Below are positions 6,268-58,384 of a stretch of DNA of 64,000 nucleotides, piece by piece. This DNA is from Butyrivibrio sp. YAB3001 (GTDB taxonomy: Bacteria > Bacillota > Clostridia > Lachnospirales > Lachnospiraceae), in the NCBI RefSeq assembly GCF_900112195.1, contig NZ_FOKR01000017.1, positions 17,829 to 81,828 of the forward strand, in the 5' to 3' direction. Both the position numbers and the translations under genes were made by a program. Under the pieces are notes generated by a model. It was not told where the DNA came from, searched no databases, and was given only the letters and a program-made list of their open reading frames with translations. The first letter of the stretch is position 1. The number at the start of each line of letters is the position of its first letter.

Positions 6268-7308
6268 TTATAAATCTATATCATTCATAAACAATTCCAA
6301 TGAATACACTAACCATTTCTGATCACCTGTCATTCCATCTTGACAATTAGGCAAAAACTCATTACGAGATGGTCCCTTCCATCTGCTTAACCATTCATTC
6401 ATTGGTCTTGGCATTGGAGTCTTTGGAGGTATAATCCAATCAGGATATAACCTTGAAAATAATTCTCTTACTAAATATTTATTTTCTCCGCTCCTAATCC
6501 TCTTCAAATCTAATGGTTCTTTCATTTTTGTATATGCATATGGAGCTACAAGATCCATTCCCGCAGTCTTAGTTGCGTTAATATAAAAATTCAATGATGC
6601 ATAATACTCAAACTCAGACAGAAATCTAGGGACATCGACCCAACCATCTACAGAATAATTCATATATGGCTCTGATATAAACTCAAAATCTTTTAATACA
6701 TAATATGGTTTTACGAAACTCCATCTATCTGCAAACTCTCCTATTGTCCAATCTCGAGAAAGAAGATTACTATGCCCACCATATACACAATCAGCTGTTT
6801 CTCCAAATATTAACGTATCAAAACCATCCTTTTTTGCTTGAAGTGACGCTTTATATATTTGAATTTCAATTGAATGTGTTGGACAATTCTTAGCTCTCAT
6901 AATTAAAGAAGCATATTTTTCAAAATCTTCCCAATATATATCTATAACTTTATGTTTCAACCCACACTCTTTAGCATATCGTGCAGCCATCTCCGTTTCG
7001 TCAGTCACTTTGCATCCAGGAACTATGCATCGAAATGTATATGCAGTAGCCCCCTCTGGCATAAACTTTGCCAATATAGCAGAATCTATTCCTCCACTCA
7101 ACGCAATAGCCGCTTTTCTGTTTTCACATGTTTTTCTAACAACTTTTCTTAAATGTTCTTCAAGTTGGTAACTATCAGATATTAAGTTTCTCTCTATATC
7201 CCTTACTAATTTAGTTTTTGTCATACTATCACAGAAGCATTTCTCTTGATCAACAATGAATCTATACATAAGAAATGAGCTCATACAATACTTTAAATCT
7301 ACTATCAT
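6268..7308 (-). CDS. Asparagine-synthase-like amidotransferase/ligase (synthetase domain only)
   Basis: The 346-residue protein carries a PP-loop ATP pyrophosphatase motif, ALSGGIDSAIL, near residue 70, and the family-like FGETADCVYGG near residue 170. It lacks an N-terminal glutamine-hydrolysing domain with a leading Cys, so it is not a complete AsnB. Proteins of this type in glycan loci are thought to adenylate a carboxylate and amidate a sugar acid or amino-acid substituent, but the substrate here is unknown. I place the start at ATG 7308 because AAGGTGG lies six bases upstream; a longer frame to 7347 has no such signal. The flippase stop is 40 bases upstream, so the genes are probably co-transcribed. 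Confidence 0.7.
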   Translation of the reverse strand: MIVDLKYCMSSFLMYRFIVDQEKCFCDSMTKTKLVRDIERNLISDSYQLEEHLRKVVRKTCENRKAAIALSGGIDSAILAKFMPEGATAYTFRCIVPGCKVTDETEMAARYAKECGLKHKVIDIYWEDFEKYASLIMRAKNCPTHSIEIQIYKASLQAKKDGFDTLIFGETADCVYGGHSNLLSRDWTIGEFADRWSFVKPYYVLKDFEFISEPYMNYSVDGWVDVPRFLSEFEYYASLNFYINATKTAGMDLVAPYAYTKMKEPLDLKRIRSGENKYLVRELFSRLYPDWIIPPKTPMPRPMNEWLSRWKGPSRNEFLPNCQDGMTGDQKWLVYSLELFMNDIDL

Positions 7309-7347
7309 CTTTAACCACCTTATCTTTAATACCAAGCACATTGGCAA

Positions 7348-8844
7348 TTAAACATTTTTCTTAATACCTTTTCGTATACTAAGCATTCCCTTTATTGCTA
7401 TAATTAACCTTTTTCTAAAAACAAAAATCATAATAATAAATACGGCCAGTATACAATAGCGAATAATGGAGTATTTGTATGTAAGAAGAAGAATGAATCC
7501 GCACAGTAAAAATGGAATCGCTATCATTAGTATTATTTTTGTTTCATATGGATATTTTCCAAAGCAACACAGTCTACAAACTCTCCTCATAAATAAATAA
7601 TGAGCAAGAGCATATGTAATATAGCAAATTAGTGTTGTATATCCAGCTGCAATATATCCATATTTCCGAATAAAGAAATAATTCAATATAACATTCAACA
7701 AAGCCCCTAAAACACTGGCTGTCATAATAAACTTTGTCTTTTCATAATAAAATGCAAATTTTGCAAATAAATCATATGAGAACAGAAAAAAAACACTCAT
7801 AGCTACCGGTGGAATAACATAAATTGCTTCATGATAGGATTTAGGTGCAAAAACAGCAATCACTTCTGGTGCCATAGCAATTAGTATAAGATTCACGACT
7901 GCTACAAAAAGTAATGATGCATATGCAATAGGAGCAATATCATTTTCCTTCCTATCCTTTATTTTTCTATATATCCATGGACTAATAGTCTGCATTAATG
8001 CAGTATTAAACAATGTCATTATTAATGATACAGAATATGCCAATCCATAAATACCTGATTGACTATCCCCTACCATTTTTTGAATCATTATGCGATCCGA
8101 CGAATTTAATACAGTTTGAGACAAATAATGTGGTACAAGCGGTAAATTAAATCCTAATGCATAAATCCAATATTTCTTCGAATAAATACCCTTTCCTTTA
8201 CGGATTAATGATAGAAACATCCAAGAAAATCCAATTAGTTCAACCGACACTAATCCAATTATTCTTGCCGTCACCTTATCTTTACACAATGATACCAGGA
8301 TTATCCCTAGTATAGGCTTAATGCAGGATACAATAATTGTAATGATTACTAAATTTCTGTATGCATATTTTATTCGCTGTTCATTAGCCCAAAAGTGAAA
8401 AACCGATGACGACCATACCTTTACCAACATCGCCACTATCTGTATCGTCGTTAATGATAAAAAAACATCAATATAATCATGAAGCAAAAAATAAATACCC
8501 ATCCACAATGATACTGAAAGTGTCATCAATCCAAGTAATGAAGATGAAAACAGATCTTTGTCTTTATCAAATTTAACTAATCCCTGCGTATGAACTCCTG
8601 AAGATAATGATAATCCTACTACAATAGCCACTATCCCCTGCCAAGAATTCCAAACTCCAAATCTCCCATATTCATCAGTACTCAGCAATCTAGTAAAAAT
8701 TGGCATTGTTATTACTGAAATACCTTTTTGCAAAAAAGAACATACTAAAAACCAAAATGATGCTCTAACTTGAACTGGTAAACTCTTATATTTTTTCAAT
8801 ATTCCTATACTTTTTTTATATCCAAATGAATCACTTAATATCAC
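7348..8844 (-). CDS. Wzx-type polysaccharide flippase (oligosaccharide translocase)
   Basis: A 498-residue protein with about 12-14 hydrophobic segments. The N-terminal part (PVQVRASFWFLVCSFLQKG, TMPIFTRLLSTDEYG) is typical of the polysaccharide transporter (PST/MOP) superfamily that flips undecaprenyl-diphosphate-linked repeat units outward. The start is a GTG at 8844, overlapping the end of the nucleotidylyltransferase gene by 14 bases, with AAGG about nine bases upstream. A degenerate relative of its C-terminal half forms part of the chimeric pseudogene at 4.7-6.2 kb. It is the only intact flippase in the window and should export the repeat unit built by the neighbouring transferases. Confidence 0.9.
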   Translation of the reverse strand: MILSDSFGYKKSIGILKKYKSLPVQVRASFWFLVCSFLQKGISVITMPIFTRLLSTDEYGRFGVWNSWQGIVAIVVGLSLSSGVHTQGLVKFDKDKDLFSSSLLGLMTLSVSLWMGIYFLLHDYIDVFLSLTTIQIVAMLVKVWSSSVFHFWANEQRIKYAYRNLVIITIIVSCIKPILGIILVSLCKDKVTARIIGLVSVELIGFSWMFLSLIRKGKGIYSKKYWIYALGFNLPLVPHYLSQTVLNSSDRIMIQKMVGDSQSGIYGLAYSVSLIMTLFNTALMQTISPWIYRKIKDRKENDIAPIAYASLLFVAVVNLILIAMAPEVIAVFAPKSYHEAIYVIPPVAMSVFFLFSYDLFAKFAFYYEKTKFIMTASVLGALLNVILNYFFIRKYGYIAAGYTTLICYITYALAHYLFMRRVCRLCCFGKYPYETKIILMIAIPFLLCGFILLLTYKYSIIRYCILAVFIIMIFVFRKRLIIAIKGMLSIRKGIKKNV

Positions 8845-9265
8845 TCAAATTATCCTTTCTCACAGCTTGAAGTGCCTGGGAGATTTTCGTACTAGAAACA
8901 CCCTTTGTATATGGGAAATAAACTATTTGAATTCCTTCCTTAGAAAAATCAATTTCATACTGCTTCCATTTTTCTGTACCATACCAATCATCACCAACAA
9001 ATAAATATGATGCCCCTAATTTTTTACATGCTTCAAGTTTATCCATATTATATTGTGGAACGGCAGCATCAACATATTTACATGAACGAACAATTTCAAG
9101 CCTATCTTCAAATGGAATCATTGCATTTTTTCCCTTGTATTGCACAAGTTCATCAACTGTAACCCCCACTATTAATTTGTCACACATTCCTTTAGCATTT
9201 TTTAGCAGATTCAAATGCCCCACATGAAACAAATCGTAAACACCTGTTGTATATCCAATTATCAT
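8831..9265 (-). CDS. TagD-like cytidylyltransferase (glycerol-3-phosphate cytidylyltransferase family)
   Basis: The 144-residue protein is a single nucleotidyltransferase domain. It has IGYTTGVYDLFHVGHLNLL (residues 2-20) with the HxGH signature, DRLEIVRSCKYVD in the middle, and KGVSSTKI at the C-terminus, equivalent to the RTEGISTTKI element of TagD. The family activates glycerol phosphate, and some relatives other alcohol phosphates, as CDP derivatives. Its position next to licD suggests that it makes the CDP-activated alcohol used by the LicD transferase. It overlaps licD by four bases (ATGA) and the flippase by 14, so translation is probably coupled. The alcohol cannot be deduced from sequence. 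Confidence 0.85.
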   Translation of the reverse strand: MIIGYTTGVYDLFHVGHLNLLKNAKGMCDKLIVGVTVDELVQYKGKNAMIPFEDRLEIVRSCKYVDAAVPQYNMDKLEACKKLGASYLFVGDDWYGTEKWKQYEIDFSKEGIQIVYFPYTKGVSSTKISQALQAVRKDNLSDIK

Positions 9266-10110
9266 AAATTTTCACCTCTTCTTTTCCTATCAGCGTAATA
9301 GCCAAAAGCATTGCACAAATCTAATAAATAAACGTTATGAAGTGTCTTTTGCTGTTCTTTCGGTGGTAGTTTCATATAATTTCCAAAATCCTGTTTTAGA
9401 TATTGATCATAGCCAATCGGAACCGCTATTGTTGTATTTTCAAATGGTACTTCCACCACAGAATCGAACATTTCTTTTGCATATACTTTCCTGTTTATTG
9501 ACGCTTTGTATCTCCAAGTAAATAAAGCCCTATCAGAATTTTCACCATCAAATTGCCTTAAACACTTTTCTATTTTGTTAGAATAATAATCAGGTTTATG
9601 GGTTATCTGAATTAATGCAAAAATGCAATGCTTTAGCTTACTTGACATAGATAATGATTTACGAAATGGCTTTCTATTTACATTATTCATATGAGATAAC
9701 TTTTTAACTTTTTTAATAACAAAATCAACTTTATCTGCAGGAATGGCATCAACCGGCATAACATCAATAAACACACCCGAATATCGACTTGGGAAATCAA
9801 CAAAATGCTGCTCTATATACGTTGTTCTGGAATCATGAATCTTCATATATAAGCCGTTATATATTTTGCAGTTATCACCATCAAGTTTTTGTAAGTAATC
9901 AGGTAACTCTTTATAATACTCTTTTCTGAATTTCTCATAATCTTCCCTAGGCATTGCAATGTCTATGTCATCATCCCAAGGAATGAAGCCCTGATGTCGG
10001 ACAGCTCCAATACATGTGCCTCCTATAGCAAAATAAGTTAATCCATGCCTTTCTAATACTTTCTTTACCTCGATGAAAATTTCTAATTCTTTCTTTTGAA
10101 GTTCATTCAT
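9262..10110 (-). CDS. LicD family phosphotransferase
   Basis: The 282-residue protein has the LicD/nucleotidyltransferase-fold core: YFAIGGTCIGAVRHQGFIPWDD (about residues 27-48) followed at once by the metal-binding DDDIDIAM. LicD proteins transfer phosphocholine or related alcohol phosphates from a CDP donor onto glycans. The start is taken as ATG 10110, nine bases after GAGAGGG. A longer frame would need a TTG inside the end of the preceding glycosyltransferase. The adjacent cytidylyltransferase can supply the donor. No choline kinase or choline transporter is visible, so glycerol phosphate or another polyol phosphate is as plausible as choline. Confidence 0.85.
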   Translation of the reverse strand: MNELQKKELEIFIEVKKVLERHGLTYFAIGGTCIGAVRHQGFIPWDDDIDIAMPREDYEKFRKEYYKELPDYLQKLDGDNCKIYNGLYMKIHDSRTTYIEQHFVDFPSRYSGVFIDVMPVDAIPADKVDFVIKKVKKLSHMNNVNRKPFRKSLSMSSKLKHCIFALIQITHKPDYYSNKIEKCLRQFDGENSDRALFTWRYKASINRKVYAKEMFDSVVEVPFENTTIAVPIGYDQYLKQDFGNYMKLPPKEQQKTLHNVYLLDLCNAFGYYADRKRRGENL

Positions 10111-10124
10111 AAGTGCATACCCTC

Positions 10125-11300
10125 TCAATAAATTGAACGATATAACTCAAAATATTGTTTTAACATAGTATCTTCATCAAATCTTTCCCTATCATATTTA
10201 AGAAAGGTATTCCTTACTGATAATTCTCTAAAAGACAACGTTTCAATAATACTCAATAATTCTTTTTCATCATCCAAAGAAAATACCCAACCATTTTTAG
10301 AATTGACTATTTCACTATTTCCTCCGCTATTACTTGCAATTGCCGGTGTTCCACATGATAAACTTTCCAACAGAGCACAAGAATAATTTTCAGCTGCGCT
10401 AGGCAAAATAAATACATCGCACTCCGCATATATTTGTGCCATAATTTTTTCATCAGTAATATACCCATGTTCTACAACTTTATACTCTGTAGAAAGCATA
10501 TCTGGCACGTCACCACCATAAATATGTAAAACAAACTTATTCTTTTCACGAACTTTATTCAAAACTCTAATCAGAAAACTAATATTCTTATATTTACTGT
10601 CATTTTTATTTGCACCAAATAGTATGGATATAGGACGATCATTCGAAAAATCTTTTGAAACATATTTAAAAATAGATAAACTAACACCATTACTTATCAG
10701 CACACGTTTTTGTGAACTCAAAAAACTCTCTTCCAGTAAATCAAATAACCATCTTGAAGGCGTAACATATGTTACACTTTCTCCATAAGCACTCTCTTTA
10801 TTCCTAAATAATCGTTTGGTATTACGAAATAACACCGATGGGTATAAATCCTTTTGTGCACATTTGAAACATTTTTCGTATTTCCATTTATCACATTTCA
10901 AAGAATAACCACAATGTGCTGTAATTGGCCACATATCATGTAAAGTCCAAACCACTTTACAGTACTTTTGAAAATATTTCATATCAGAATACCCAATATA
11001 ATTTCCATGAATATTGTGAAAATGAATTATGTCTATATGATATTTTTTAATTAGTGCTTTAACCTTATAACGTGTATAAAAATCTATTCTTCTCGCGTTA
11101 TCAGTAACAACAGAATATACGTAATTGATACCTCGTACCAAACCATTGTGTGAATAAACATGATATACTTCACCAGAAGTCTCTTTTCCTTCCAAAAAGT
11201 ATGTATTGCAGCCGTACTCTTTTTCCTTCTTGTACAATACCCTGGATATTTTTTCAGCACCACCGCCAACATATCTGGTATTTACATACAAAACATTCAT
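10125..11300 (-). CDS. Glycosyltransferase family 4 protein
   Basis: This 391-residue GT-B enzyme begins MNVLYVNTRYVGGGAEKI, the glycine-rich acceptor-side loop of GT4. The C-terminal nucleotide-sugar site is CDVFILPSAAENYSCALLESLSCGTPAIAS, with the E-x7-E arrangement. ATG 11300 is chosen because AGGTGG lies five bases upstream. A Cys-rich stretch (CGYSLKCDKWKYEKCFKC, about residues 130-150) is a recurrent insertion in some polysaccharide GT4 enzymes and may bind a metal. It probably adds one sugar of the repeat unit at the inner membrane face. Donor and linkage are not predictable. Confidence 0.9.
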   Translation of the reverse strand: MNVLYVNTRYVGGGAEKISRVLYKKEKEYGCNTYFLEGKETSGEVYHVYSHNGLVRGINYVYSVVTDNARRIDFYTRYKVKALIKKYHIDIIHFHNIHGNYIGYSDMKYFQKYCKVVWTLHDMWPITAHCGYSLKCDKWKYEKCFKCAQKDLYPSVLFRNTKRLFRNKESAYGESVTYVTPSRWLFDLLEESFLSSQKRVLISNGVSLSIFKYVSKDFSNDRPISILFGANKNDSKYKNISFLIRVLNKVREKNKFVLHIYGGDVPDMLSTEYKVVEHGYITDEKIMAQIYAECDVFILPSAAENYSCALLESLSCGTPAIASNSGGNSEIVNSKNGWVFSLDDEKELLSIIETLSFRELSVRNTFLKYDRERFDEDTMLKQYFELYRSIY

Positions 11301-11341
11301 ATTGACCACCTATATAACAATCACAAAATATTCACTTCATG

Positions 11342-13111
11342 CTAATATTGCCACACTACATATCTATCATTTTCATATACAATACTGTGATTCTTTATAT
11401 CTTTCATATTTTCATCATTATTAAGCGATATCACTAGTTTTCCTCTATCATCATCCGAAAACTCTTCTATCGTATCCTTTAAATATATCCTAGAGAACAT
11501 ATTGTTATACTGTAATAAACCACTACCATACTTAAAACCGTTATATACAATAAATTCGTCAACATCATTTAAAACTTTTTGTATGTCATATGTTTGTTCT
11601 ACATAATTTCGTTGTTTTTCATACAATTCCATAGATTCTTTATTTGCTATGGAAACAGATATAATTACTACAATTGAAAATGTTATTATCTCAATTTGCT
11701 TAGAAAATTTGCTTATATTTTTGGAAATAAAAATCAACCAAAATACTAATGAAATGCAAAGTAACCCCACCTGAGTATGGTACAATGTAGCTTCCCACGG
11801 TGAAGTCTCAAAATATTGGGAAATAACACCTGGACAAGCATTTCTAAAAGCAAATAATTTCTTAACTTTATGATCATGTAATACATTAAATGTCGACAAA
11901 CCTCCAATAATAAAAATCACCATTATAAAAATATATGCTCTTAATATTTTTTGAGTGTTTTTCTCAGTTAAAAGATACATCACCCCCAACATCAACATTG
12001 GTGCAAATAAATATGAACAATATCTCCCATAATGCATAAACTCAACACGTTTATAAACTGTTTTATTTGCAAATTGATATGTAGGTAAACAAATTCCGCC
12101 AATTGTAGTTGTAAAAATATAAAACAACCCGCCCCATTTATCTGGATTAAATAGTTTTATTCTCTTACGATTTTTCCATATATATGCAAATCCCCAAAAG
12201 AAAAGCCCACAATCTATAGCTCCGATATAATAAATCATTCCTCCAATGTTCTGAAGTGCTATAATCTCTTTGGATATATTAAGCAATATTCCTTTAATCA
12301 AAAACTCTAATGTGTACCCTCGGTCTGACAGTAAGTTTCCCATTTTCTTACCACTTTCGACAGCAGCATACATGGTCCCTTTATATATTGAAAGCGGAAG
12401 TTTATATGCAAGATAATAAAAAATCACTGAAGCCAAGCACGTAACGACAATTTTTGTTATCTCAATAAAGTTTATTTCTTTCCTAATAATACAAATCAAT
12501 ACTGCATAGGCAGATAGGAACACTGCCATTACAAGTAATAAAATACACCTTTGATGAACTGAAAAAGCATATATAGAAATAGCATTAATCAAGAAAACCT
12601 TGTACCATTTTCTTTCATTAAACCAACTTAAAGTCAGAGCTGAAAACGCCCAAAATACGAACCTTAATAAGCTTTCTGCAAAGAAAAAATAAACATAGAA
12701 CAAATCAGTAACAGAGATAACACTCACAAAAGCAACTATTATTTTTTTATAGTCTTCAACATCTGGAAAAATGATAGATATACAATAATACGATAAAAAT
12801 AAACAGCTAGCATGCATAATTGCTTGAAAACATAAAGCAACTTGTGTTAGTACACTGGAATTATGTCCAAATAAATTAACAAGAGGAGCAAGCAAGTAAC
12901 CATATCCAAATCCATAAAAACCATTTTCTGAAACTACCTCTTTCCAGTTAAGATTCAAAATCCATGCTGCCCCTTGCCATACGCCAAATTCATCATTTTG
13001 ATTCCAAATGGTCCGAACATCACGCACATGTAATGTTTCTAATAAAATAATCAAAACAAAGCTAATCAATAATGAAGTTTTTTGATCTATCCTAATTTGT
13101 TTTTTTAACAC
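11342..13111 (-). CDS. Multi-pass membrane protein, candidate polysaccharide polymerase (Wzy) or GT-C glycosyltransferase
   Basis: A 589-residue protein with about 11-13 hydrophobic helices and a C-terminal soluble tail of about 110 residues. A NQNDEFGVWQGAAWILN segment lies just after the first helix, where GT-C enzymes carry an acidic catalytic or metal-binding motif. No strong Wzy signature is visible, but this is the only large multi-TM protein besides the flippase, as expected for a Wzx/Wzy locus. The start is GTG at 13111, five bases after AAGGGGA, inside the end of the upstream GT2 gene (20-base overlap). Whether it polymerises repeat units or adds a side sugar from a lipid-linked donor is open. 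Confidence 0.6.
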   Translation of the reverse strand: MLKKQIRIDQKTSLLISFVLIILLETLHVRDVRTIWNQNDEFGVWQGAAWILNLNWKEVVSENGFYGFGYGYLLAPLVNLFGHNSSVLTQVALCFQAIMHASCLFLSYYCISIIFPDVEDYKKIIVAFVSVISVTDLFYVYFFFAESLLRFVFWAFSALTLSWFNERKWYKVFLINAISIYAFSVHQRCILLLVMAVFLSAYAVLICIIRKEINFIEITKIVVTCLASVIFYYLAYKLPLSIYKGTMYAAVESGKKMGNLLSDRGYTLEFLIKGILLNISKEIIALQNIGGMIYYIGAIDCGLFFWGFAYIWKNRKRIKLFNPDKWGGLFYIFTTTIGGICLPTYQFANKTVYKRVEFMHYGRYCSYLFAPMLMLGVMYLLTEKNTQKILRAYIFIMVIFIIGGLSTFNVLHDHKVKKLFAFRNACPGVISQYFETSPWEATLYHTQVGLLCISLVFWLIFISKNISKFSKQIEIITFSIVVIISVSIANKESMELYEKQRNYVEQTYDIQKVLNDVDEFIVYNGFKYGSGLLQYNNMFSRIYLKDTIEEFSDDDRGKLVISLNNDENMKDIKNHSIVYENDRYVVWQY

Positions 13112-13892
13112 TAGAATCCCCTTTAATGCGTTTCCATATATACATGTAATCTGATATCATCGGATTTATAGATACAATTTTTGTTTTAATGCTATTAACA
13201 TATCTATTGTGTTTCTTAGAATCTCTATTATATTTATGATTGATATCATCTATTTCCTCGTAAAGCGCAGAAAAATTCCTAGATGACACCCCTTCTCGAT
13301 CAAATGTCGAAACAATAATATTTATCAGCTCTAAATGATACCCATCTTCAAATAGCTTAAGCAAAAGGTCTCTATCAGCAGCAACTCTATATTTTGTATT
13401 GAACCTAATTTCTTTCATGAGTTTTGTCCTAACTAAAACAGATTGATGACAAAACCTAATACTATCCTTATTAATTAGAGGTTTCTCTATAAACTCTCCA
13501 CCATTACTCAAAATTGAATTCGTAGCTCCAATCATAGCATCTGCTGTGTTTTGGAACTTTATGCTGGCTAAGAGTTGCATCACATTCTTATCATATAAAG
13601 TATCACCAGCATTCAAGAAAAGAACATAATTGCTATCGCTACAAAAATCCAATCCCTGATTCATTGCATCGTAAATTCCACTATCTTTTTTTATAAAATG
13701 CTTAAATTCGATTTCCTTATCAGCAAATGCTTTTTCGTATTCCTTTAACATCTCATTTGTTCCATCTGTCGATTCACCATCTTTAACAACATACTCAAAA
13801 CTAGCATGCTGTTGATTCAAAACAGAATCCATAGTTTTTTTTAAGCCTTCTTTATCATTTAAGCAAATAGTAATTATTGTAATATAATTCAT
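13092..13892 (-). CDS. Glycosyltransferase family 2 protein (WcaA-type)
   Basis: A GT-A enzyme of about 266 residues. NYITIITICLND opens the domain, VVKDGESTDGT carries the first Asp site, and DSGIYDAMNQGLDF with LFLNAGDTL gives the family pattern; the DxD equivalent is degenerate (NAGD), as is common in this subgroup. The ATG at 13892 gives a normal family N-terminus. An in-frame ATG at 13967 would add 25 atypical residues and overlap the upstream gene further. No strong ribosome-binding site separates the options. It is probably translationally coupled to the flanking genes and adds one sugar to the repeat unit. Confidence 0.85.
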   Translation of the reverse strand: MNYITIITICLNDKEGLKKTMDSVLNQQHASFEYVVKDGESTDGTNEMLKEYEKAFADKEIEFKHFIKKDSGIYDAMNQGLDFCSDSNYVLFLNAGDTLYDKNVMQLLASIKFQNTADAMIGATNSILSNGGEFIEKPLINKDSIRFCHQSVLVRTKLMKEIRFNTKYRVAADRDLLLKLFEDGYHLELINIIVSTFDREGVSSRNFSALYEEIDDINHKYNRDSKKHNRYVNSIKTKIVSINPMISDYMYIWKRIKGDSSVKKTN

Positions 13893-13941
13893 CAAACAAC
13901 CCACATCTCTATAAACATTTAGTTCCATGATATCTGTATTA

Positions 13942-14964
13942 TTAAATAGCCTTTTTGAATTGAACATTCTTAAGAACTCTACATATTCTAACTGTAAATG
14001 AAACAGAAATCATCGATAAAGTGCTTAACACCCTAACCACCTTTGAAATATTATGATTCCTAAACACTTTAGTTTTATTCCGTTTTATAAAGTCCAAGTA
14101 TTCCTGAGCATAGCTACTGCTATCTTTATAATTCTTAATTTGAGAAAGTAAATCGTATGATAATACAAAAATTCTACTATCAATTGCATCACGTATAATC
14201 ACACTAGCTTCTTCTCTCTTATGAAGTAAATCTAAAAAATGCTTATGTGCTACTTCATAATCCAAATTATGTGTAATGCTGCTTACTACATCTAAATGGT
14301 AATAAAGGATTTTATTCACATATACTATCGTTTTTGCTCGTTCCAATACTTTACAGTTAAAATCTAAATCTTCTCCAAGTTTCAATTCATGTGAAAACCT
14401 AATATCACCAATAATGTCCTTACTAAAAAGTTTCAAATAAGGATATGGCATAACCAAGCGCTTATAAAACATTTTCTCTATGCTTTCTTCACCGCTCATA
14501 GTCAAGCAATCACTATCATTTAATTCACTTATATGTTTCGCGTACTCGGAATGAGAAAACTTATCTCTATCAAATTTCTCATAATTGCACATTACAATAT
14601 CAGCATTTCTTTTCTCTGCCACTGAATATAGCAAAGACAAATACTCAGGATGCACAAAATCATCTGCATCAACAAAGGTAATATATTTCCCAATTGCTTT
14701 TTCTAATCCTGCATTTCTGGCAGATGATGGTCCCTGATTCATTTGAGAAAAATATTTTATTCTTGAATCAGAAAATGCCAAAACTTTGCTCTCTGTCCTA
14801 TCCACAGATCCATCATTAATTACAATTAATTCCCATTTTGTAAACTTCTGAGCAGTAACCGCTTCAATCGCATCACCAATAGTATCTTGAGCATTATACG
14901 CAGGCATAATGACACTTATCTCAACATTATTCAGTTCATTTGCACTATTCATAGCTTGAACCAT
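13942..14964 (-). CDS. Glycosyltransferase family 2 protein
   Basis: A 340-residue enzyme with a complete GT-A domain: VEISVIMPAYNAQDTI (about residues 14-29), VINDGSVDRT, GPSSARNAGLEKA, and YITFVDADDF with the DAD metal-binding motif near residue 96. The C-terminal 200 residues contain the extended region typical of capsule GT2 enzymes. The gene begins ten bases after the GT4 stop. The ATG at 14964 has a weak ribosome-binding site and ATG 14952 is an alternative. It likely transfers a single sugar in repeat-unit assembly; donor unknown. Confidence 0.88.
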   Translation of the reverse strand: MVQAMNSANELNNVEISVIMPAYNAQDTIGDAIEAVTAQKFTKWELIVINDGSVDRTESKVLAFSDSRIKYFSQMNQGPSSARNAGLEKAIGKYITFVDADDFVHPEYLSLLYSVAEKRNADIVMCNYEKFDRDKFSHSEYAKHISELNDSDCLTMSGEESIEKMFYKRLVMPYPYLKLFSKDIIGDIRFSHELKLGEDLDFNCKVLERAKTIVYVNKILYYHLDVVSSITHNLDYEVAHKHFLDLLHKREEASVIIRDAIDSRIFVLSYDLLSQIKNYKDSSSYAQEYLDFIKRNKTKVFRNHNISKVVRVLSTLSMISVSFTVRICRVLKNVQFKKAI

Positions 14965-14973
14965 ATAACAGAC

Positions 14974-16104
14974 TCATACGAAATATAATTGCTCGACATG
15001 TTCAACTAGTCTTTCCCATGAAAAACAGGCCTTTTGTTCAACTATTCCAGCAGCACATTTCGTTGAATAATCTCCTTTATAAAAATCAATGACAGCTTTT
15101 GCAAAAGCCATAGAATCCTGCGCAGATACCAACAGCCCAGTCTCTCCATCTGTAACCACATCCGGCAAGCCACCAACATTTGTCGCAATAACCGGTTTAT
15201 CAAAGCCGTACGCAATCTGGACTATTCCGCTTTGTGTAGCACTAACATATGGAAGAACAACTACGTCACAAGCTGCAAAGAATTTCTCAACATCCTTGTC
15301 GGGGATGTAGCCGTCATAGATATCAATCACATCTGAAACATCTCCATCTTTGATAAGCCCAAGATACTCGTCCTTGTCATCTCCGAAGTCGCCAACTACC
15401 AGCAATCTGCAATCCGAGAGATTTTTCTTTACTTCCGGCATAGCTTTTATGAGGTAATCCAGACCCTTGTACTTTCTAACAAAGCCAAAGAACAGAAGGA
15501 TCTTTTCATCAGACTTTATACCAAGAAGTTGCCGAGCAGCTTCTTTTGACATATCCTGCATCTTGAACGCATTGTATGTAGGATGAACCGCTCTCTTATA
15601 CTTGGCATTAGGGATAATTGTCTTTAAATCTTCTTCATCCTGAGTGGATTGAACGATATAATAATCACCATTCTTCAAAGTTTTCTCTGTAAGCCATTTG
15701 TCCAATGGAAAACGCTCATGCGGAAACACGTTATGGCAAATGAACATAACTTTTGCTTTGATGTGCTTTGTCATAATCTGATAGCAAGGTGCAAAATATG
15801 GATGCCACCATTGAATGATCACCAGATCTGGTTTAAGCTCATTTATCCTCTTTGCAGAACTGATCCAATTTAAAGGGCTTGCAGTATGTATAAAAAATTG
15901 TGTATTATTAATCTTGAAAGCATCATTCGAATAATCCCTCTGCTCTTTTTTGTAGAGCACTTTGGGATACTGAAAAGAATACGAAACCATTGTTACGTCG
16001 TATTTCTTAGATAATGCCCTGTACATAAGTCCCGTATAATGTGATATTCCTCCCTTGTACGGATATACTGGACCAATCAGTACAATTCTTTTTAAATCGT
16101 TCAT
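14974..16104 (-). CDS. Glycosyltransferase family 4 protein, first gene of the polysaccharide operon
   Basis: A 376-residue GT-B enzyme. Its N-terminus RIVLIGPVYPYKGGISHY has the acceptor-side glycine loop. The C-terminus has LLFFGFVRKYKGLDYLI and CDVVVLPYVSATQSGIVQIAYGFDKPVIATNVGGLPDVV. The start is ATG 16104, five bases after AGGGG; a longer frame to 16131 has no such signal. It is the promoter-proximal gene of the locus. The DNA just upstream is one of two inverted recombination-like sites and then a terminator, so its expression probably depends on the orientation of the adjoining segment. Base composition at its 5' end is closer to core genes than that of the AT-rich distal genes. Confidence 0.9.
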   Translation of the reverse strand: MNDLKRIVLIGPVYPYKGGISHYTGLMYRALSKKYDVTMVSYSFQYPKVLYKKEQRDYSNDAFKINNTQFFIHTASPLNWISSAKRINELKPDLVIIQWWHPYFAPCYQIMTKHIKAKVMFICHNVFPHERFPLDKWLTEKTLKNGDYYIVQSTQDEEDLKTIIPNAKYKRAVHPTYNAFKMQDMSKEAARQLLGIKSDEKILLFFGFVRKYKGLDYLIKAMPEVKKNLSDCRLLVVGDFGDDKDEYLGLIKDGDVSDVIDIYDGYIPDKDVEKFFAACDVVVLPYVSATQSGIVQIAYGFDKPVIATNVGGLPDVVTDGETGLLVSAQDSMAFAKAVIDFYKGDYSTKCAAGIVEQKACFSWERLVEHVEQLYFV

Positions 16105-16162
16105 TTCAACCCCTAATCCTTCTTCATGCATAAATACTGACTATGCTTTGCATGAAAAAGCC

Positions 16163-16188
16163 GTTCCAAAATGTTTACTTTTTGGAAC
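16163..16188. repeat. Left 26-bp inverted site of a putative invertible segment
   Basis: The site is built as half-site GTTCCAAAATGT, central TT, then the complement of half-site GTTCCAAAAAGT. The two halves match at 11 of 12 positions around a two-base core, the layout of hix sites used by Hin-type serine invertases. It is the exact reverse complement of 17033-17058. It lies 59 bases upstream of the first polysaccharide gene and outside the recombinase gene. Confidence 0.8.
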
Positions 16189-16239
16189 AGCCGAAAACCC
16201 GCATGAATACTGCATTCAATTTTAAAAAAAATGAAAAAA

Positions 16240-16273
16240 GACAGAACTACATTTTGATATCTGTAGTTCTGTC
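16240..16273 (-). terminator. Strong terminator between recombinase and polysaccharide operon
   Basis: A perfect 12-bp stem GACAGAACTACA/TGTAGTTCTGTC with a ten-base loop is followed on the minus strand by a TTTTTT run and a second T-rich run. It lies inside the putative invertible segment and should stop recombinase transcripts from reading into the polysaccharide genes in the present orientation. Confidence 0.8.
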
Positions 16274-16302
16274 TCACTTTTTGGGTGGATATGCTTTTTA
16301 AA

Positions 16303-16905
16303 TCAGATTTCTCCAGCCTGCTTTGCCTTGTTATAGAAAGTGGTCTTGGACATGTTGCACTTATTGGCTGCTTCTGCTATTGTGCACTCATTGTTTCTAA
16401 GAAGAGTACAAACCACCTTGAAATTGCTGGGAAGCGCGGTTTTGGGTCTACCGAAGCGGACACCTCTTTTCTTGGCGGCAACTATTCCTTCTTTTTGCCT
16501 ACGCTTAATATTGTTTCTTTCTGTCTCGGCGACAAAGGATAAGATTTGTAACACCAGGTCGCTAATAAATGTACCAAGGAGATTTTTGGCAACTCGTGTG
16601 TCAAGAAGCGGCATATCAAGCACCACTACGTCAGCTTTGATGGTCTTGGTAATGTACTTCCACTGATCGATAATCTCCGTATAATTTCGTCCAAGTCTGT
16701 CGATGCTCTTGATAAAAAGGACATCAGATTCTCTAAGCTTTTTTATCAGCTCATTGTACTTGGGACGATCAAAGTCTTTGCCGGATTGCTTGTCTACATA
16801 GATGTTTTTTGGCTTTACGCCAGCTTTCAGAAATGCGTCAATCTGACGGTTTTCATTCTGATCACGGGAACTTACTCTTGCATATGCTAGTTTTCTTTGT
16901 CTCAT
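16303..16905 (-). CDS. Small serine recombinase (resolvase/invertase family), candidate DNA invertase
   Basis: The 200-residue protein has the complete small serine recombinase layout. The catalytic domain starts LAYARVSSRDQNENRQIDAF with the nucleophilic Ser in RVSS. FIKSIDRLGRNY supplies the active-site Arg region, and the long E helix includes SFVAETERNNIKRRQ. The C-terminal helix-turn-helix is TIAEAANKCNMSKTTFYNKA. Length matches Hin/Gin-type invertases and Tn3-type resolvases (180-210). The ATG at 16905 has GGAGG seven bases upstream. It lies between two 26-bp sites in inverted orientation, as hin lies between hixL and hixR. That placement, rather than the protein alone, argues for an invertase; a resolvase or cassette-transposition role is the alternative. 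Confidence 0.9.
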   Translation of the reverse strand: MRQRKLAYARVSSRDQNENRQIDAFLKAGVKPKNIYVDKQSGKDFDRPKYNELIKKLRESDVLFIKSIDRLGRNYTEIIDQWKYITKTIKADVVVLDMPLLDTRVAKNLLGTFISDLVLQILSFVAETERNNIKRRQKEGIVAAKKRGVRFGRPKTALPSNFKVVCTLLRNNECTIAEAANKCNMSKTTFYNKAKQAGEI

Positions 16906-16990
16906 TTTGTAACCTCCATGAGAATAAACAGATTAGTAAGTTACAAGTAATATTTCGACATACTTTTGCAAAAGTTTTTAAAATATACTA

Positions 16991-17019
16991 TTGAATTATT
17001 TTGATATTTTGAGTAGAAT
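16991..17019 (+). promoter_or_regulatory. Sigma-A-like promoter inside the invertible segment, facing its right edge
   Basis: TTGAAT and TAGAAT are separated by 17 bases, matching four and five of six consensus positions. Transcription would start about 7 bases before the right 26-bp site and run toward the 3' end of sigH. After inversion it would lie beside the left site and read into the first polysaccharide gene with a leader of about 90 bases. Prediction only. Confidence 0.5.
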
Positions 17020-17021
17020 AC

Positions 17022-17069
17022 AAAAAGAGTTTGTTCCAAAAAGTAAACATTTTGGAACAAACTCTTTTT
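17022..17069 (-). terminator. Terminator of sigH, with the right inverted site embedded in its stem
   Basis: A perfect 20-bp stem (arms 17022-17041 and 17050-17069) with an 8-base loop ends in a T run on the minus strand, downstream of the sigH stop. The inner part is the right 26-bp site, so inversion would swap one arm and leave only the inner stem. Confidence 0.7.
17033..17058. repeat. Right 26-bp inverted site of a putative invertible segment
   Basis: Half-site GTTCCAAAAAGT, central AA, then the complement of half-site GTTCCAAAATGT. It is the exact reverse complement of 16163-16188. Together the pair delimits an 844-bp segment (16189-17032) holding the recombinase gene, a terminator and an outward-facing promoter. 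Confidence 0.8.
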
Positions 17070-17096
17070 ATGATAGACAGTGCATCCTAGCACTTT

Positions 17097-17723
17097 TCAT
17101 TTATTTTTGAGATATTTCTTGAGTTTATTTCTGACTCTCTGCATAGCATTATCAGTAGACTTTTCATCTCTGGAAAGAACTGCAGATATCTGTTTGATAC
17201 TCATTCCTGTGATATAAAGATCGAGAACCTGCGTTTCCATAGGACTTAGCTCGCGCTCAATGGCTTCCTCGAGAGCGTTTAGATTTTCCTGGTCTATGAT
17301 ATGCTGTTCCGGGATAAGGCTTGAATCAGATTCCAGAATATCCTCAAGGGCAACATCGGAGCCCTCATCTTCGCCTTCTCTTTTTGCATAGATGGAGATA
17401 TAGCTGTTTAGAGGGGTATGTTTCTTGCGGGCGAGAGCTTTTACCGCAGAGTACATCTGACGGGAAATGCACAGGTCAGCAAATGTGGCAAAGCTTGCAT
17501 CTCTTCCGTAGTCATAATCACGGATTGCTTTAAAAAGACCTATCATTCCTTCCTGAATGAGATCGTCTCTATCAGCACCGAGGATAAACATTGAAGCGGC
17601 TTTCTTCTTTACAAGGTGCTTGTATTTATTCATGATATAGTCAACGGCATCTTTTTCCTCGTTATCATGAATCGAGAGGATCAGTTCTTCATCCGATTTG
17701 TCTCTGTACTTATTCTCGTTCAA
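17097..17723 (-). CDS. sigH: RNA polymerase sigma-H factor (sporulation/stationary phase type)
   Basis: A 208-residue sigma-70 family protein. Region 2 includes ADRDDLIQEGMIGLFKAIRDYD (core binding) and SFATFADLCISRQMYSAVKA (-10 recognition). Region 4 is LSPMETQVLDLYITGMSIKQISAVL followed by the recognition helix DEKSTDNAMQRVRNKLKKYL. This matches SigH (Spo0H). The order cysS-mrnC-rlmB-sigH, conserved across Firmicutes, supports the name; the yacP gene found between rlmB and sigH in Bacillus is absent. The start is TTG at 17723, seven bases after GGAGAGG. SigH directs early sporulation and competence genes in Bacilli, but many non-sporulating Lachnospiraceae retain it with an unclear role. 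Confidence 0.88.
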   Translation of the reverse strand: MNENKYRDKSDEELILSIHDNEEKDAVDYIMNKYKHLVKKKAASMFILGADRDDLIQEGMIGLFKAIRDYDYGRDASFATFADLCISRQMYSAVKALARKKHTPLNSYISIYAKREGEDEGSDVALEDILESDSSLIPEQHIIDQENLNALEEAIERELSPMETQVLDLYITGMSIKQISAVLSRDEKSTDNAMQRVRNKLKKYLKNK

Positions 17724-17834
17724 ATGAAATCCTCTCCTCTCTCATAAACGACATATTCTATTGATTATCTTTATAATAAACTGTAAATATATCTAACCAA
17801 TATTCAAATATATAACCATTACTACCACAGCATC

Positions 17835-18584
17835 TTACAACAGTCTCTGTCTCACGATCTCGTAAGCAAGAACACCGCAAGCTACAGAAGCATTAAGGGA
17901 ATCGATGTCTCCCTTCATAGGGATTGAAGCTATCATGTCACATTTTTCTTTTACAAGGCGTCCTACTCCGCTTCCCTCATTACCGATAACAAGGCCGATT
18001 GGCCCCTTAAGATTAAGGTCATACATAGTTGTTCCGCCCATATCTGCGCAGACAAACCAAAGTCCTTTTTCCTTGAGTTCTTCAATAGTAGCAGCGATAT
18101 TTGTAACCTTGGCAACAGGAGTATAATTGATTGCTCCTGCAGAAGCCTTGGCAACAGTAGCTGTAAGTGATGCAGCCCTGTGTTTAGGGATAATAACACC
18201 ATGAGCGCCTGCCAGATTAGCAGTACGGATGATAGCACCTAAATTGTGTGGATCTTCGATATTGTCAAGGACTATAACAAATGGCTCTTCGCCCTTTTCA
18301 CTTGCTCTGTCAAGAATATCCTCAACTTCCACATACTCATAAGAAGCAGCATAGGCAAGAACGCCCTGATGCTTGCCAGTTTCTGAGAGCTGATCAAGTC
18401 TTTCTTTTTTCACAAAGCTGATAACGGTATCCTTATGTTTCTTGGCTTCACGCAAAATTGTCTGAACCGGTCCGTCTTTGCAGCCATCAAGTACAAAGAG
18501 TCTGTCGATTGTCTTCCCTGAACGAAAGGCCTCCAAAACTGCGTTTCTTCCCTCTATTATCCTGCTTTCAAAATTCTCTTCCAT
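17835..18584 (-). CDS. rlmB: 23S rRNA (guanosine-2'-O-)-methyltransferase, TrmH/SpoU family
   Basis: About 249 residues. A substrate-binding N-terminal domain (IIEGRNAVLEAFRSGKTIDRLFV) is followed by a SPOUT domain with VILDN-like VLDNIEDPHNLGAIIRTANLAGAHGVI, GLVIGNEGSGVGRLV and ASIPMKGDIDSLNASVACGVLAYE. These are the three knotted SAM-binding motifs of group 3 TrmH enzymes. The start is ATG 18584, just after AGAGGTAATGA; an upstream extension to 18656 is unlike the family. It 2'-O-methylates a guanosine in 23S rRNA. Synteny with mrnC and cysS is the usual Firmicute arrangement. Confidence 0.9.
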   Translation of the reverse strand: MEENFESRIIEGRNAVLEAFRSGKTIDRLFVLDGCKDGPVQTILREAKKHKDTVISFVKKERLDQLSETGKHQGVLAYAASYEYVEVEDILDRASEKGEEPFVIVLDNIEDPHNLGAIIRTANLAGAHGVIIPKHRAASLTATVAKASAGAINYTPVAKVTNIAATIEELKEKGLWFVCADMGGTTMYDLNLKGPIGLVIGNEGSGVGRLVKEKCDMIASIPMKGDIDSLNASVACGVLAYEIVRQRLL

Positions 18585-18726
18585 TTCATTACCTCTAAAA
18601 ATCGTAAAACAATTCATACTATCCAAACCACATATGAATTGATAATATTTATACAATAAATACCTTATTCTTTACTACAACATGAACTCAATTGCAGCTA
18701 AATTACCTATCATTTCCATCAGATGG

Positions 18727-19167
18727 TCACTTCAATATATCCAGTTCCAATCTTTCAATTCCCTTTGCCACAAGTTCACAGGCTCTGTCCATGTTGTCTG
18801 TAAGATAAAGAAATCCTATCACTGCTTCAAAGCCTGTAGCCTCAAGGTAGTCCATCGTTGTGGCATTCTTAGCCTTGGTGTGTGGCTTGGAATTGCGACC
18901 TCTTCTATAATAATCAGCCTCTTCCTCAGTCAGATCATCCATGAGAACTTTGACAAAAGCAGCCTGAGTCTGTGCCTTAACCACCTGACTGGCTCTTTTA
19001 TGAAGATTGTTGACAGCCGTGTTTCCTTTATTGACAAGTATTGAACGGATAATCACATCAAATATCGCATCGCCTATATACGCCAGCGTAAGTGGTGAAT
19101 AGGTCCTGATATCTTTTCCCTCAATACCAAATCTGTCATTTAGATAATCATTTAAACCAGCTGCCAT
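18727..19167 (-). CDS. mrnC: Mini-ribonuclease III
   Basis: A 146-residue RNase III domain without a double-stranded RNA-binding domain. LTLAYIGDAIFDVIIRSIL (about residues 27-45) carries the catalytic Asp; LHKRASQVVKAQTQA and YYRRGRNSK follow; TTMDYLEATGFEAVIGFLYL contains the second acidic cluster. The family matures 23S rRNA ends. The gene starts inside the end of cysS (16-base overlap), as in the conserved Firmicute cysS-mrnC pair. Confidence 0.92.
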   Translation of the reverse strand: MAAGLNDYLNDRFGIEGKDIRTYSPLTLAYIGDAIFDVIIRSILVNKGNTAVNNLHKRASQVVKAQTQAAFVKVLMDDLTEEEADYYRRGRNSKPHTKAKNATTMDYLEATGFEAVIGFLYLTDNMDRACELVAKGIERLELDILK

Positions 19168-55973: not shown

Positions 55974-56302
55974 GGGGACGGGGTCAATGTCATTTAGATA
56001 AGAAAAAGATGTGACAGAGCAACAAGCATGATATTTATAGCGTTTACGTGAGATGCTGCTCTTTATTAGTTGTAGAACACGTAAAACTAAACAGATATTT
56101 GGAAAAAATACGTGAGGAGAGGCTTGTTAATGGGGGTGTATCACGTAGAATGCCAGAAAATCATTGCGAAAATACGTGATAACAGTCTAAAGATAAAGCT
56201 GTGTCACGTAGATATCCACGCTACTGTATAATCTGAAGAACGTAGCGTGCCTATTTCGCATTTACTGCATTTTCTTATCTAAATGACATTGGAACCGTCC
56301 CC
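55974..56302. repeat. Left copy of a ~328-bp non-coding element with terminal inverted repeats and phased ACGT motifs
   Basis: The element is bounded by GGGGACGG-type ends. Inverted termini of about 30 bases share CAATGTCATTTAGATAAG and the following A-rich bases (near 55980-56006 and 56270-56298). Inside, ACGT tetramers start at 56046, 56079, 56110, 56143, 56174, 56206 and 56240 (spacings 33, 31, 33, 31, 32, 34). Six of them sit in alternating TACGTGA and (T)CACGTA heptamers that could pair as three tandem hairpins. No open frame of note is present. The other copy, at 58059-58384, is in inverted orientation. Confidence 0.85.
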
Positions 56303-56342
56303 GTGACTTCCCGTCCCCGTGATTGCCCTGACCGGTATTACA

Positions 56343-57791
56343 TTATTTCAGCCTCTGCGCCTGATCATATATCCCCTTCAGCAGAATATCAAACTCATCA
56401 AATTTCTCCACCGCTGTCCTTGCTCCCTCTTCGCCCATACTGGACAAAGATGCCACCTGCTCACTTGTGGCGGCGAGGCTCGCAATATTATTATTGATCT
56501 CCGTTGCACTTCTTCCTATAGCTTCTATGGAAGTACCGATATCATTAAATCTTCCTATAAGGTTTCCAACGTTCTCCCCGATCTCTTCAAAAGTATCTGC
56601 GGTCTCTCTGATAAGAATGTCCTGAGCCTTGACAGACTCAGCTACCGCATTGGTAGAGTCTACCGCATTCTGAACATCAGCGGAAAGCTCCTGCATGATG
56701 CTGGTGATCTGATTTGAAGCACTGCTGGTCTGCTCCGACAGCTGCCTTATCTCATCGGCAACCACAACGAAACCTTTCCCGGCTTCTCCCGCACGCGCTG
56801 CCTCAATTGAAGCATTGAGCGCAAGAAGATTGGTCTGCTTTGATATCGATATGATGGAACCGACAATCTTCTCAACCTTTTCGACCTTCTCAGTGACAGC
56901 TTTTGTGGATGCCACCGTCTTATCACTCATCTCAACAACATTTGCGGTCTTGTCCTTGAGCTGGTCGATGACCTTAGTCCCATCAATAACGGCTTTCTGC
57001 GTGCTCTCGGACATCTCAACCATCTGATTTCTCTTGGCATCAGCCACTTCCGTCTGCTCATGGATATCTGCTATCTGATGTGACTGCTCTGTCACGGCAG
57101 CTGCGGTATTTCCTGTGCTGCCCGCAATTTCCCTCATGCCATCGTGGTTTCTTCCTATGATGCTCTTTAACTCATCGACTTCCCCATGGGCCTCATCAAA
57201 CAGCCCCGTAATTTCCTTGGCGATCTCCACCATCTGGATACGGGTCTTTTCCTGGGTCTCCTGCCCTTTCTTGATGGCCTCGTCGTCCTCTCTTACCAGG
57301 GTCCGCCTCATCTTAAGCGACTCTATTCCGGCAATTCCCGCAAGAATGATTATGAAACAGGCCACAAAATGGTCCCTGGGTATCGAACCTGTAGCAATAA
57401 GATTTCTGACCAGGACAATAAGTCCGCCTATGGTCATAGCCATCTGTCCCACCACATAGAGCCTTAAGTCCAGATAAAGAATACACGACAGCATTACCGG
57501 TATCGCGAATGCATAAAAAATCATTTCATTTTGTATTATCATGATAATGATATAGTAAAGAGTCGGACCTCCCAGAATGACCACTGCGCCAAACCTGGTC
57601 TCTCTGAATTTGATAAATCCAACCGTCATCTGCAGCACACCTGCCAGGACAGCGACAATATCGATGACAAGCCCCAGGCTCATTCCGTGTGTTGTAGCAT
57701 CCAGCACTACCATTAAAAGCGCAGTAAAGGCAATAATAAGGTTGATCTGAAATACTTTTTTGTTTGATCTTGCATACTGGTCAGGGGTCAT
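56343..57791 (-). CDS. Methyl-accepting chemotaxis protein with multi-TM N-terminal domain
   Basis: A 482-residue protein. Residues 15-170 contain five or six hydrophobic helices with hardly any extracellular domain, so it probably senses membrane or intracellular state. No HAMP domain is obvious. The C-terminal cytoplasmic helical bundle has the MCP hairpin tip [40 protein letters not shown] (about residues 345-385), the CheA/CheW contact. ATG 57791 follows AAGGAGA by about eight bases. No che or flagellar genes are adjacent. The gene is bracketed by two inverted copies of a ~328-bp element. Confidence 0.9.
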
Positions 57792-57887
57792 ATAATTATC
57801 TCCTTTAGCCATGAAAACAGAATTTAACTGTACAATAACTGACAAAATAATTATATACTATTTCGTTGTGAACAATTATTAAATAAC

Positions 57888-57967
57888 GCTAAAACCAATC
57901 TTGCATCCGGTTATGAAGTCAGGCATGGGAAAACTATCGCCTGACCGTATGCAAGATTGGTTTTAGC
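57888..57967. repeat. 80-base perfect hairpin upstream of the chemoreceptor gene
   Basis: Arms 57888-57906 and 57949-57967 are perfectly complementary over 19 bp (ends GCTAAAACC and GGTTTTAGC). An inner 7-bp stem, GTCAGGC/GCCTGAC, lies inside. It is about 100 bases upstream of the chemoreceptor start. No T run follows on the minus strand, so it is not a standard terminator; it may be a small palindromic mobile unit or a 5'-leader structure. Confidence 0.8.
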
Positions 57968-58058
57968 AGTATCGCCCTGATCTTTACTACGGCTCAATTG
58001 TTGTATTATTGACAGGAACAACATAGAATTCTGCCTAAGACAGTACAGTGGAGTCATT

Positions 58059-58384
58059 GGGGACGGTTCCAATGCTATTTAGATAAGAAAACGTAGTAAA
58101 TGCGAAATGGGCACGCTACGTTCTGCAGATTATTCAGTGGCGTAGACATCTACGTGACAATGTTTTATCTTTTGAATGTTATCACGTAGTTTTGCAATGA
58201 TTTTCAGGCATTCTACGTGATGCACCTTCGTTAACAGACCTATCCTTACGTAATTTTTCTAAATATCTGTTCATTTCTACGTGGTCTACAACTAATAAAG
58301 AGCAACATATCACGTAGGCGCTATAAATATCATGCTTGTTGCTCTGTCACAAATTTTTCTTATCTAAATGACATTGGGACGGGG
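58059..58384. repeat. Right (inverted) copy of the ~328-bp non-coding element
   Basis: Read on the minus strand this copy matches 55974-56302 along its length, with scattered substitutions. ACGT tetramers start at 58118, 58152, 58184, 58215, 58248, 58279 and 58312 (spacings 34, 32, 31, 33, 31, 33), exactly mirroring the left copy. An eighth lies at 58091. Ends are GGGGACGG on the left and its complement form GGGACGGGG on the right. It fills most of the gap between the chemoreceptor gene and the DUF5688-like remnant. Confidence 0.85.

Follow-up and report, generated by a model that had tools for sequence, protein, structure and literature searches.

A stretch of 64,000 nucleotides of the Butyrivibrio sp. 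YAB3001 genome (contig NZ_FOKR01000017.1, positions 17,829 to 81,828; the window, below) carries, upstream of a nine-gene polysaccharide operon, a gene for a small serine recombinase enclosed by two 26-bp sites, together with a promoter that points away from the operon (Table 1). The two sites are identical and stand in exact inverted orientation, 844 bp apart, and the identity between them extends to 27 nucleotides (nt). Each consists of two 12-bp half-sites, alike at 11 of 12 positions, around a 2-bp core of TT or AA, which is the layout of Hin and Gin sites. Exact inverted repeats of at least 20 nt, 60-3000 bp apart, were absent from 10 shuffles of the window, and the real window contains only the site pair and one unrelated set (positions 55985-58376). 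The locus thus has the layout of an inverton, a promoter lying between inverted repeats ahead of a gene. As argued below, the element is very probably a self-contained reversible promoter switch, the flipping of which would turn the polysaccharide operon on and off.

The recombinase gene is the only open reading frame (ORF) of at least 80 amino acids on its own strand between the sites, and it is intact. Its product has the length of a small serine recombinase (about 200 amino acids), matches the Pfam family Resolvase (PF00239, E=1.9e-28, residues 7-149) and has, as judged by eye, a C-terminal helix-turn-helix. Promoters were scored with a hand-written sigma-70 matrix at a threshold of 7.5. 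The promoter TTGAAT-17-TAGAAT scores 10.0 and is the top match in positions 16101-17100, the runner-up (9.4) lying just before it on the same strand; on the minus strand, that is, directed at the operon, no match of at least 7.5 was found in this region. Since the promoter in the segment points away from the operon, the assembly would show the OFF state. Inversion of the segment in silico moved the transcription start, assumed to lie 7 nt after the -10 box, from 17026 to 16194, which is 90 nt before the ATG of the first glycosyltransferase gene at 16104. The local claims of an earlier reading made from the sequence alone (the sequence-only reading) were therefore borne out: identical inverted sites of hix type with 11-of-12 half-sites and TT/AA cores, a Hin-size serine recombinase gene in an 844-bp segment between them, an outward promoter, only weak promoter matches beside the operon, a promoter position about 90 bases upstream of the first glycosyltransferase after inversion, and a terminator between that gene and the recombinase gene, where we located a terminator-like repeat.

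Table 1. Features of the switch and of its flanks in the window
Feature	Positions	Strand	Remarks
Left recombination site	16163..16188	+	12+12 half-sites, core TT
Right recombination site	17033..17058	-	exact inverted copy of the left site; core AA on the + strand
Segment predicted to invert	16175..17046		core to core, 872 bp; inverted in silico
Promoter TTGAAT-17-TAGAAT	16991..17019	+	directed away from the operon in the assembly; conserved in the switch C23 of this genome
Palindrome around the right site	17022..17069		predicted OFF-state terminator for the outward promoter, broken by inversion
Serine recombinase gene	16303..16905	-	200 amino acids, Resolvase domain
Probable terminator of the recombinase gene	16239..16274	-	13-bp inverted repeat, then T-run
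Leader, left site to GT4 start	16105..16162	-	no promoter match of at least 7.5
GT4-type glycosyltransferase gene, operon gene 1	14974..16104	-	longest ORF begins at 16131
Remaining operon, 8 ORFs	6268..14964	-	tightly packed
SigH-type sigma factor gene	17097..17723	-	beyond the right site, reading toward its palindrome

In the mechanism that we propose, the recombinase encoded by the segment would bind both sites, cut their 2-bp cores and invert 872 bp. In the OFF state the promoter would fire rightward and its transcript would end at once, because the right site and its two flanks form a perfect hairpin followed by U residues: the OFF transcript has a perfect 16-bp stem and then UUUU, and its 75 nt fold to -27.2 kcal/mol. 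In the ON state the promoter would stand about 90 nt ahead of the GT4 start and read the nine-gene operon, and the terminator would be split, because just one of its arms moves with the segment. In the ON transcript the stem at the site is cut to 9 bp, GGC stands between the stem and the U-run, and the U-run is partly absorbed into another hairpin (75 nt folding to -21.8 kcal/mol). With one terminator arm fixed and the other mobile, inversion would both bring the promoter and open its path, and this pairing of terminator loss with promoter gain predicts a tight OFF state. No Rfam RNA family was found in positions 14000-19000 of the window. Four points of this model are inferences: the recombinase acts on these sites, the segment inverts in this strain, transcription proceeds as described, and a surface glycan is made. 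As to the last point, genes 2-9 of the operon begin with two glycosyltransferases, a 589-amino-acid protein without assignment and another glycosyltransferase, and end with a LicD, a cytidylyltransferase, a polysaccharide flippase-type protein and an asparagine-synthase-like protein, gene families from which the products would be surface glycans.

The repeats might instead be merely bidirectional terminators beside sigH and the recombinase gene, with their likeness to recombination sites incidental, given that the right site lies within an excellent 48-bp terminator-like palindrome. The left copy, however, lacks long flanking arms (15 nt at 87%) and yet matches the right one at all 27 nt, the asymmetric core among them, and similar motif pairs recur by related recombinases and other glycosyltransferase operons (see below), making this explanation extremely unlikely. 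It is also very unlikely that inversion mainly regulates the sigH side, by antisense transcription or terminator strength, rather than the polysaccharide operon. Although the OFF promoter aims at the 3' end of sigH and inversion would weaken the hairpin, the OFF transcript is predicted to stop before sigH, and at the three loci described below as C23, C48 and L063 it is the glycosyltransferase operon that is the constant neighbour, the other flank being variable. The right-site palindrome also resembles the terminator of the SigH-type gene. On that side inversion weakens the hairpin from -34.2 to -20.5 kcal/mol (90 nt folded), so that sigH read-through might add to ON-state transcription of the operon.

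The arrangement recurs elsewhere in the same genome. A degenerate site pattern allowing at most 2 mismatches, composed after the sites were known, was found at seven places in the 4.59 Mb genome, which make up three inverted pairs and a lone weak site; the reversed pattern, used as a control, was found at 0. All three pairs (C8, which is the pair of the window, C23 and C48) head glycosyltransferase operons, genes of the CDP-linked polyol or choline phosphate type are present in all three operons as well, and the core dinucleotides are head-to-head in 3 of 3 pairs. C23 (positions C23:30134-32287) encloses a recombinase 69% identical to that of the window, and a PD-(D/E)XK protein. It adjoins the beginning of a GT4-type gene (L011 9085-10140), the longest ORF of which begins inside the site, with an in-frame ATG preceded by AGGAG just past it; a CDP-glycerol transferase, an IspD-like gene and other genes follow. 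C8 and C23 can be aligned over about 105 bp that end with the site, the remaining upstream DNA being outside the alignment, and the two have a common promoter block by the right site (TTGAAT/TTGCAC-17-TAGAAT). As this block is directed away from the operon in C23 as well as in C8, both read OFF. The OFF transcript of C23 has a like hairpin before a U-run, folding to -22.1, and to -18.9 after inversion.

The third pair, C48 (positions C48:42929-43189), is an orphan: its site starts are 235 bp apart with no recombinase between them. It lies directly upstream of a GT4-type gene (L005 7291-8589), which is followed by genes for a CDP-glycerol transferase and an IspD-like protein, the latter nearly alike, by eye, to the one after C23. 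The promoter TTGACA-17-GATAAT runs into the operon with a score of 11.4, the best match on the other strand having 7.6, and C48 thus reads ON. Of its four half-sites, two repeat a C8 half-site exactly and two agree with one at 11 of 12 positions, while the half-sites of C23 match at 9-10 of 12. The cores of C8 (TT) and C48 (GT) differ, C23 and C48 having theirs in common. C48 may be flipped in trans by the recombinase of the window, with the differing core keeping the two loci from being joined. The left C48 site lies within a 119-amino-acid ORF (L005 6747-7106), possibly a fortuitous one, that reaches into the segment and would have its C-terminal part altered by inversion. The genome holds a fourth pair, C43, which is more degenerate and was missed by the pattern; it has its sites about 94 bp apart and adjoins a recombinase (L012) 45% identical to that of the window. 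Over the matched stretch this L012 recombinase is identical to a protein of another species, suggesting recent transfer, and the combination of a recombinase and a degenerate pair before an AMP-binding enzyme gene is seen both there and at L074 in genome G008.

Congeners show what stands at this position when there is no switch. Among 79 genomes of the genus, a GT4 75% identical to that of the window (E 1e-80 or better) was found in two others, G069 and G004, and the orthologous operons of both have a fixed TTGACA-17-GATAAT, with 118 bp from the -10 box to the start codon in L124. No inverted site pair was found in the 8.2 and 8.5 kb scanned; no recombinase match was found in G004, and just a distant one (8.1e-6) in G069. 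By this comparison, the switch of the window occupies the place of the fixed promoter of these two genomes.

Recombinase matches were found in 38 of the 79 genus genomes (E 1e-3 or better, many of them distant) and in 123 of 396 genomes of the family (E 1e-30 or better). We analysed the surroundings of 59 locus entries, mostly best matches with DNA, from which the window, C23, a palindromic contig end and one duplicate were excluded; L033-L046 and L055-L056, which are distant or partial, lie outside the 59 and were scanned separately. Within the 59, L023/L065 and L027/L070 are the same loci twice, and L108/L109 look alike. An inverted pair of GTNNAC-centred sites follows the recombinase gene in 26 entries, whereas 1 of 2360 shuffled versions of these stretches passes, a control that strengthens the case for the cassettes. 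These cassettes begin 4 to 48 bp past the extrapolated end of the recombinase, with site starts 94-207 bp apart. In 18 of them an ORF of at least 134 amino acids begins 5-173 bp past the second site; in L024 the ORF is at +384, L101, L107 and L110 have just ORFs of 94-113 amino acids, L108/L109 have none, and for L090 and L093, where little DNA remains, no downstream ORF is listed. By eye, the genes after the cassettes include those for a glycosyltransferase, an MBOAT acyltransferase, an IspD-like and a LytR-type protein, and restriction- or helicase-like proteins. A tighter cassette pattern matched 6 of the 79 genomes, and its reversed control none.

The cassettes carry predicted promoters, which by score face both ways. 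The better strand of a cassette scores 9.8 on average, compared with 7.0 for shuffles (p=1e-9, with 20 non-independent shuffles per cassette), and by score the promoter points onward in 8 of the 26, back in 12 and is unclear in 6. Both orientations thus occur across relatives. The L020 cassette, moreover, aligns in reverse to those of L024 and L028 with scores of 78 and 80 (the maximum of 400 shuffles was 51), although the polarity of its sites is the same as theirs. As judged from these alignments, inversion has taken place between congeners, a homologous cassette being flipped in L020 relative to L024 and L028. That the window holds an invertible promoter switch, now OFF, as the sequence-only reading had it, is therefore supported by the two other pairs of the same pattern in the genome, one of them ON, by the congeners with a fixed promoter and by the two promoter orientations among relatives. 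The switch is not, however, an isolated one, but a variant of a recurrent type.

A third locus has its recombinase gene enclosed by sites. When 66 loci were searched for sites flanking the recombinase on either side, only L063 (genome G006) qualified besides C8 and C23, and five shuffles of all 66 loci gave one match in total. The sites of L063 are separated by 2.77 kb, and one stands 105 bp ahead of a first ORF without Pfam match, which heads a polysaccharide-type operon (two GT2, a dTDP-sugar epimerase and a GT4); the enclosed variant has so far been met at polysaccharide operons only. Enclosed and adjacent architectures may be two clades, the tree having one change among the labelled rows (support 74/82, three rows enclosed, 31 of 61 unlabelled). 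As judged by eye, the recombinase in the L063 segment (6614-9142) is accompanied by a toxin-antitoxin-like pair and an XRE-type regulator. Other ways of finding sites were abandoned: a strict GTTCC...GGAAC pattern gave sites in just 4 of the 79 genus genomes, including that of the window, the common centre being GTNNAC; a stricter palindrome rule was too strict and found few pairs in relatives; and a generic inverted-repeat scan near recombinases was dominated by N runs and the palindromic contig end (L062, L073). Nor did we keep the notion that, of the two sites, the one beside the recombinase as a rule terminates better. In 24 of the 26 cassettes (L109 and L091, the weakest, omitted) the recombinase-side read-out is U-richer (4.8 versus 3.1 of 10, p=0.008), and folding energy has the same tendency (p=0.07); the support is weak, and the idea fails in C48.

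Several observations weigh against a working switch. Both recombinase-enclosed switches of the genome, C8 and C23, read OFF, and the one in G006 (L063) is likely, though not firmly, OFF too, its far end scoring 11.0 outward but 9.2 inward. The conserved promoter of C23 (8.8) is only third-best in its region, behind matches of 9.5 and 9.0, and no promoter of at least 7.5 for the recombinase gene was predicted inside the segment of the window. The ON transcript of the window retains a nearby hairpin and U-run (the -21.8 kcal/mol fold), so that read-through is a prediction, and C48 lacks such an OFF terminator, 170 nt folding to -29.9 in the OFF and -39.5 in the ON orientation. C43 precedes an AMP-binding gene rather than a glycosyltransferase. 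Among the relatives, 33 of the 59 entries fall below the cassette threshold, five of them (four loci) for want of downstream DNA; L027/L070 and L047 miss it by one point and L057 by two. Inversion in this strain, finally, is a prediction from sequence comparison. The lack of a predicted promoter of at least 7.5 for the recombinase gene and the OFF reading of both enclosed switches would fit a switch that is genuine in origin but locked, with recombinase or sites dead and the operon permanently silent or otherwise driven. Sites identical over 27 nt, an intact ORF and a promoter block conserved with C23 argue for continued use, and we regard a locked switch as unlikely.

The sequence-only reading also described the switch as Hin-like, which holds for the layout of the sites and not for the sequence of the enzyme, which is nearer to Sin/Bin3 and plasmid recombinases. 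The nearest solved structure is 2r0q (4.5e-30), a Tn552 'DNA-invertase bin3' by the depositors' title, followed by Sin (5.4e-21) and Tn3 resolvase (5.7e-21), with Tn3/gamma-delta resolvases among the best; chains titled simply 'DNA-invertase', which we take to be Gin, gave 2.1e-12 and 3e-12. The closest solved relatives are thus not the enteric DNA invertases of the Hin/Gin subfamily. Against the NCBIfam model of Mpi (NF009949) the recombinase scored 49.2 bits, the cut-off being 272. Recombinases of plasmids are up to 53% identical to it. In two plasmid loci of Priestia one site of the same consensus lies about 170 bp upstream of the recombinase gene, without an inverted pair at threshold, and two Sporosarcina loci have a similar single site upstream of the recombinase. 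The Priestia sites fit the idea that the sites of the window are the enzyme's own, and suggest that the motif belongs with this enzyme family. A scan of viral contigs gave just two relatives, both of them distant (37% identical). The recombinases of three fecal phage records are 54-61% identical; no site pair reached the threshold in these records, and in one of them (L128) two GTATAC-centred sites below threshold are visible by eye.

With such kin, plasmid recombinases as well as Bin3, Sin and Tn3/gamma-delta resolvases, the element could be a remnant of a mobile or plasmid-derived resolvase, the repeats being resolution sites or transposon ends. We find this highly improbable, as the recombinase is the sole ORF of its size class on its strand between the sites, the cores are head-to-head in all three pairs of the genome, the two plasmid relatives have one upstream site where the window has an inverted pair around a promoter, and promoter orientation differs among relatives. 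The comparison suggests rather that a resolvase of plasmid type, of the same sequence family as Bin3/Sin and with a site consensus found in two Priestia plasmids, was recruited as a promoter switch.

Promoters that invert are already known as a class, and in Bacteroides promoter inversion is a familiar cause of phase variation of surface polysaccharides. In the Hin/hix system of Salmonella the invertible segment contains the recombinase gene and an outward promoter, and its 26-bp sites have 12-bp halves and a 2-bp core. The proposed switch of the window resembles it in all these respects and differs in its target, which is a polysaccharide operon and not flagellin, and in its enzyme, which is closer to Bin3/Sin. 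A catalogue of gut invertons was reportedly compiled with PhaseFinder (Jiang 2019).

Our comparison with the literature draws on parts of four papers (PMC11892184, PMC5903667, PMC8493755, PMC2784873). In Bacteroides fragilis, Mpi is a serine recombinase that inverts capsule promoters before several polysaccharide loci of one genome (PMC5903667), as is proposed here, and a title in a reference list likens the repeats to the hin region. Mpi acts globally on many loci, whereas in this genome a recombinase of their own lies within two of the three pattern pairs; action in trans as in Mpi is possible for C48, which has no recombinase and has half-sites in common with C8. For Clostridioides difficile cwpV, it has been proposed that inversion forms or disrupts an intrinsic terminator of the OFF transcript, but the cwpV promoter is fixed outside the inverted region, whereas here promoter and recombinase are both inside (PMC2784873). 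The gut invertons found with PhaseFinder/PhaseFinderDC are short elements near surface genes, Clostridia included; their strongest recombinase link for Clostridia is to the tyrosine type, and the word 'serine' is absent from the main text (PMC11892184). The published Clostridia cases compared, within these parts of the papers, use tyrosine recombinases. Among the matches listed from open-licence titles and the beginnings of abstracts, we recognised no serine-recombinase promoter switch in Lachnospiraceae.

A broader picture can be drawn from these comparisons, although we lean slightly against it as a whole, and the C43 pair and the folding of C48 weaken it a little: the host family may have widespread and apparently undescribed serine-recombinase switches derived from plasmid-type resolvases, the enclosed variant of which would move a promoter and at the same time dismantle its OFF terminator, and this genome may hold three insulated switches with one site grammar, C48 being flippable in trans. 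A recurrent serine-recombinase cassette before polysaccharide, acyltransferase and restriction-like genes would let anaerobic gut Firmicutes vary their surface in a manner comparable to that of Bacteroides, which is relevant to phage resistance and host contact, and common half-sites with differing cores would be a model for the coexistence of switches without chromosome rearrangement.

The other inverted set of the window, at 55985-58376, is a 318-nt repeat with arms 88% complementary and 1756 nt apart. Between the arms lies an ORF encoding a methyl-accepting chemotaxis signalling domain, and a 60-nt part of the left arm region is itself repeated in inverted orientation.

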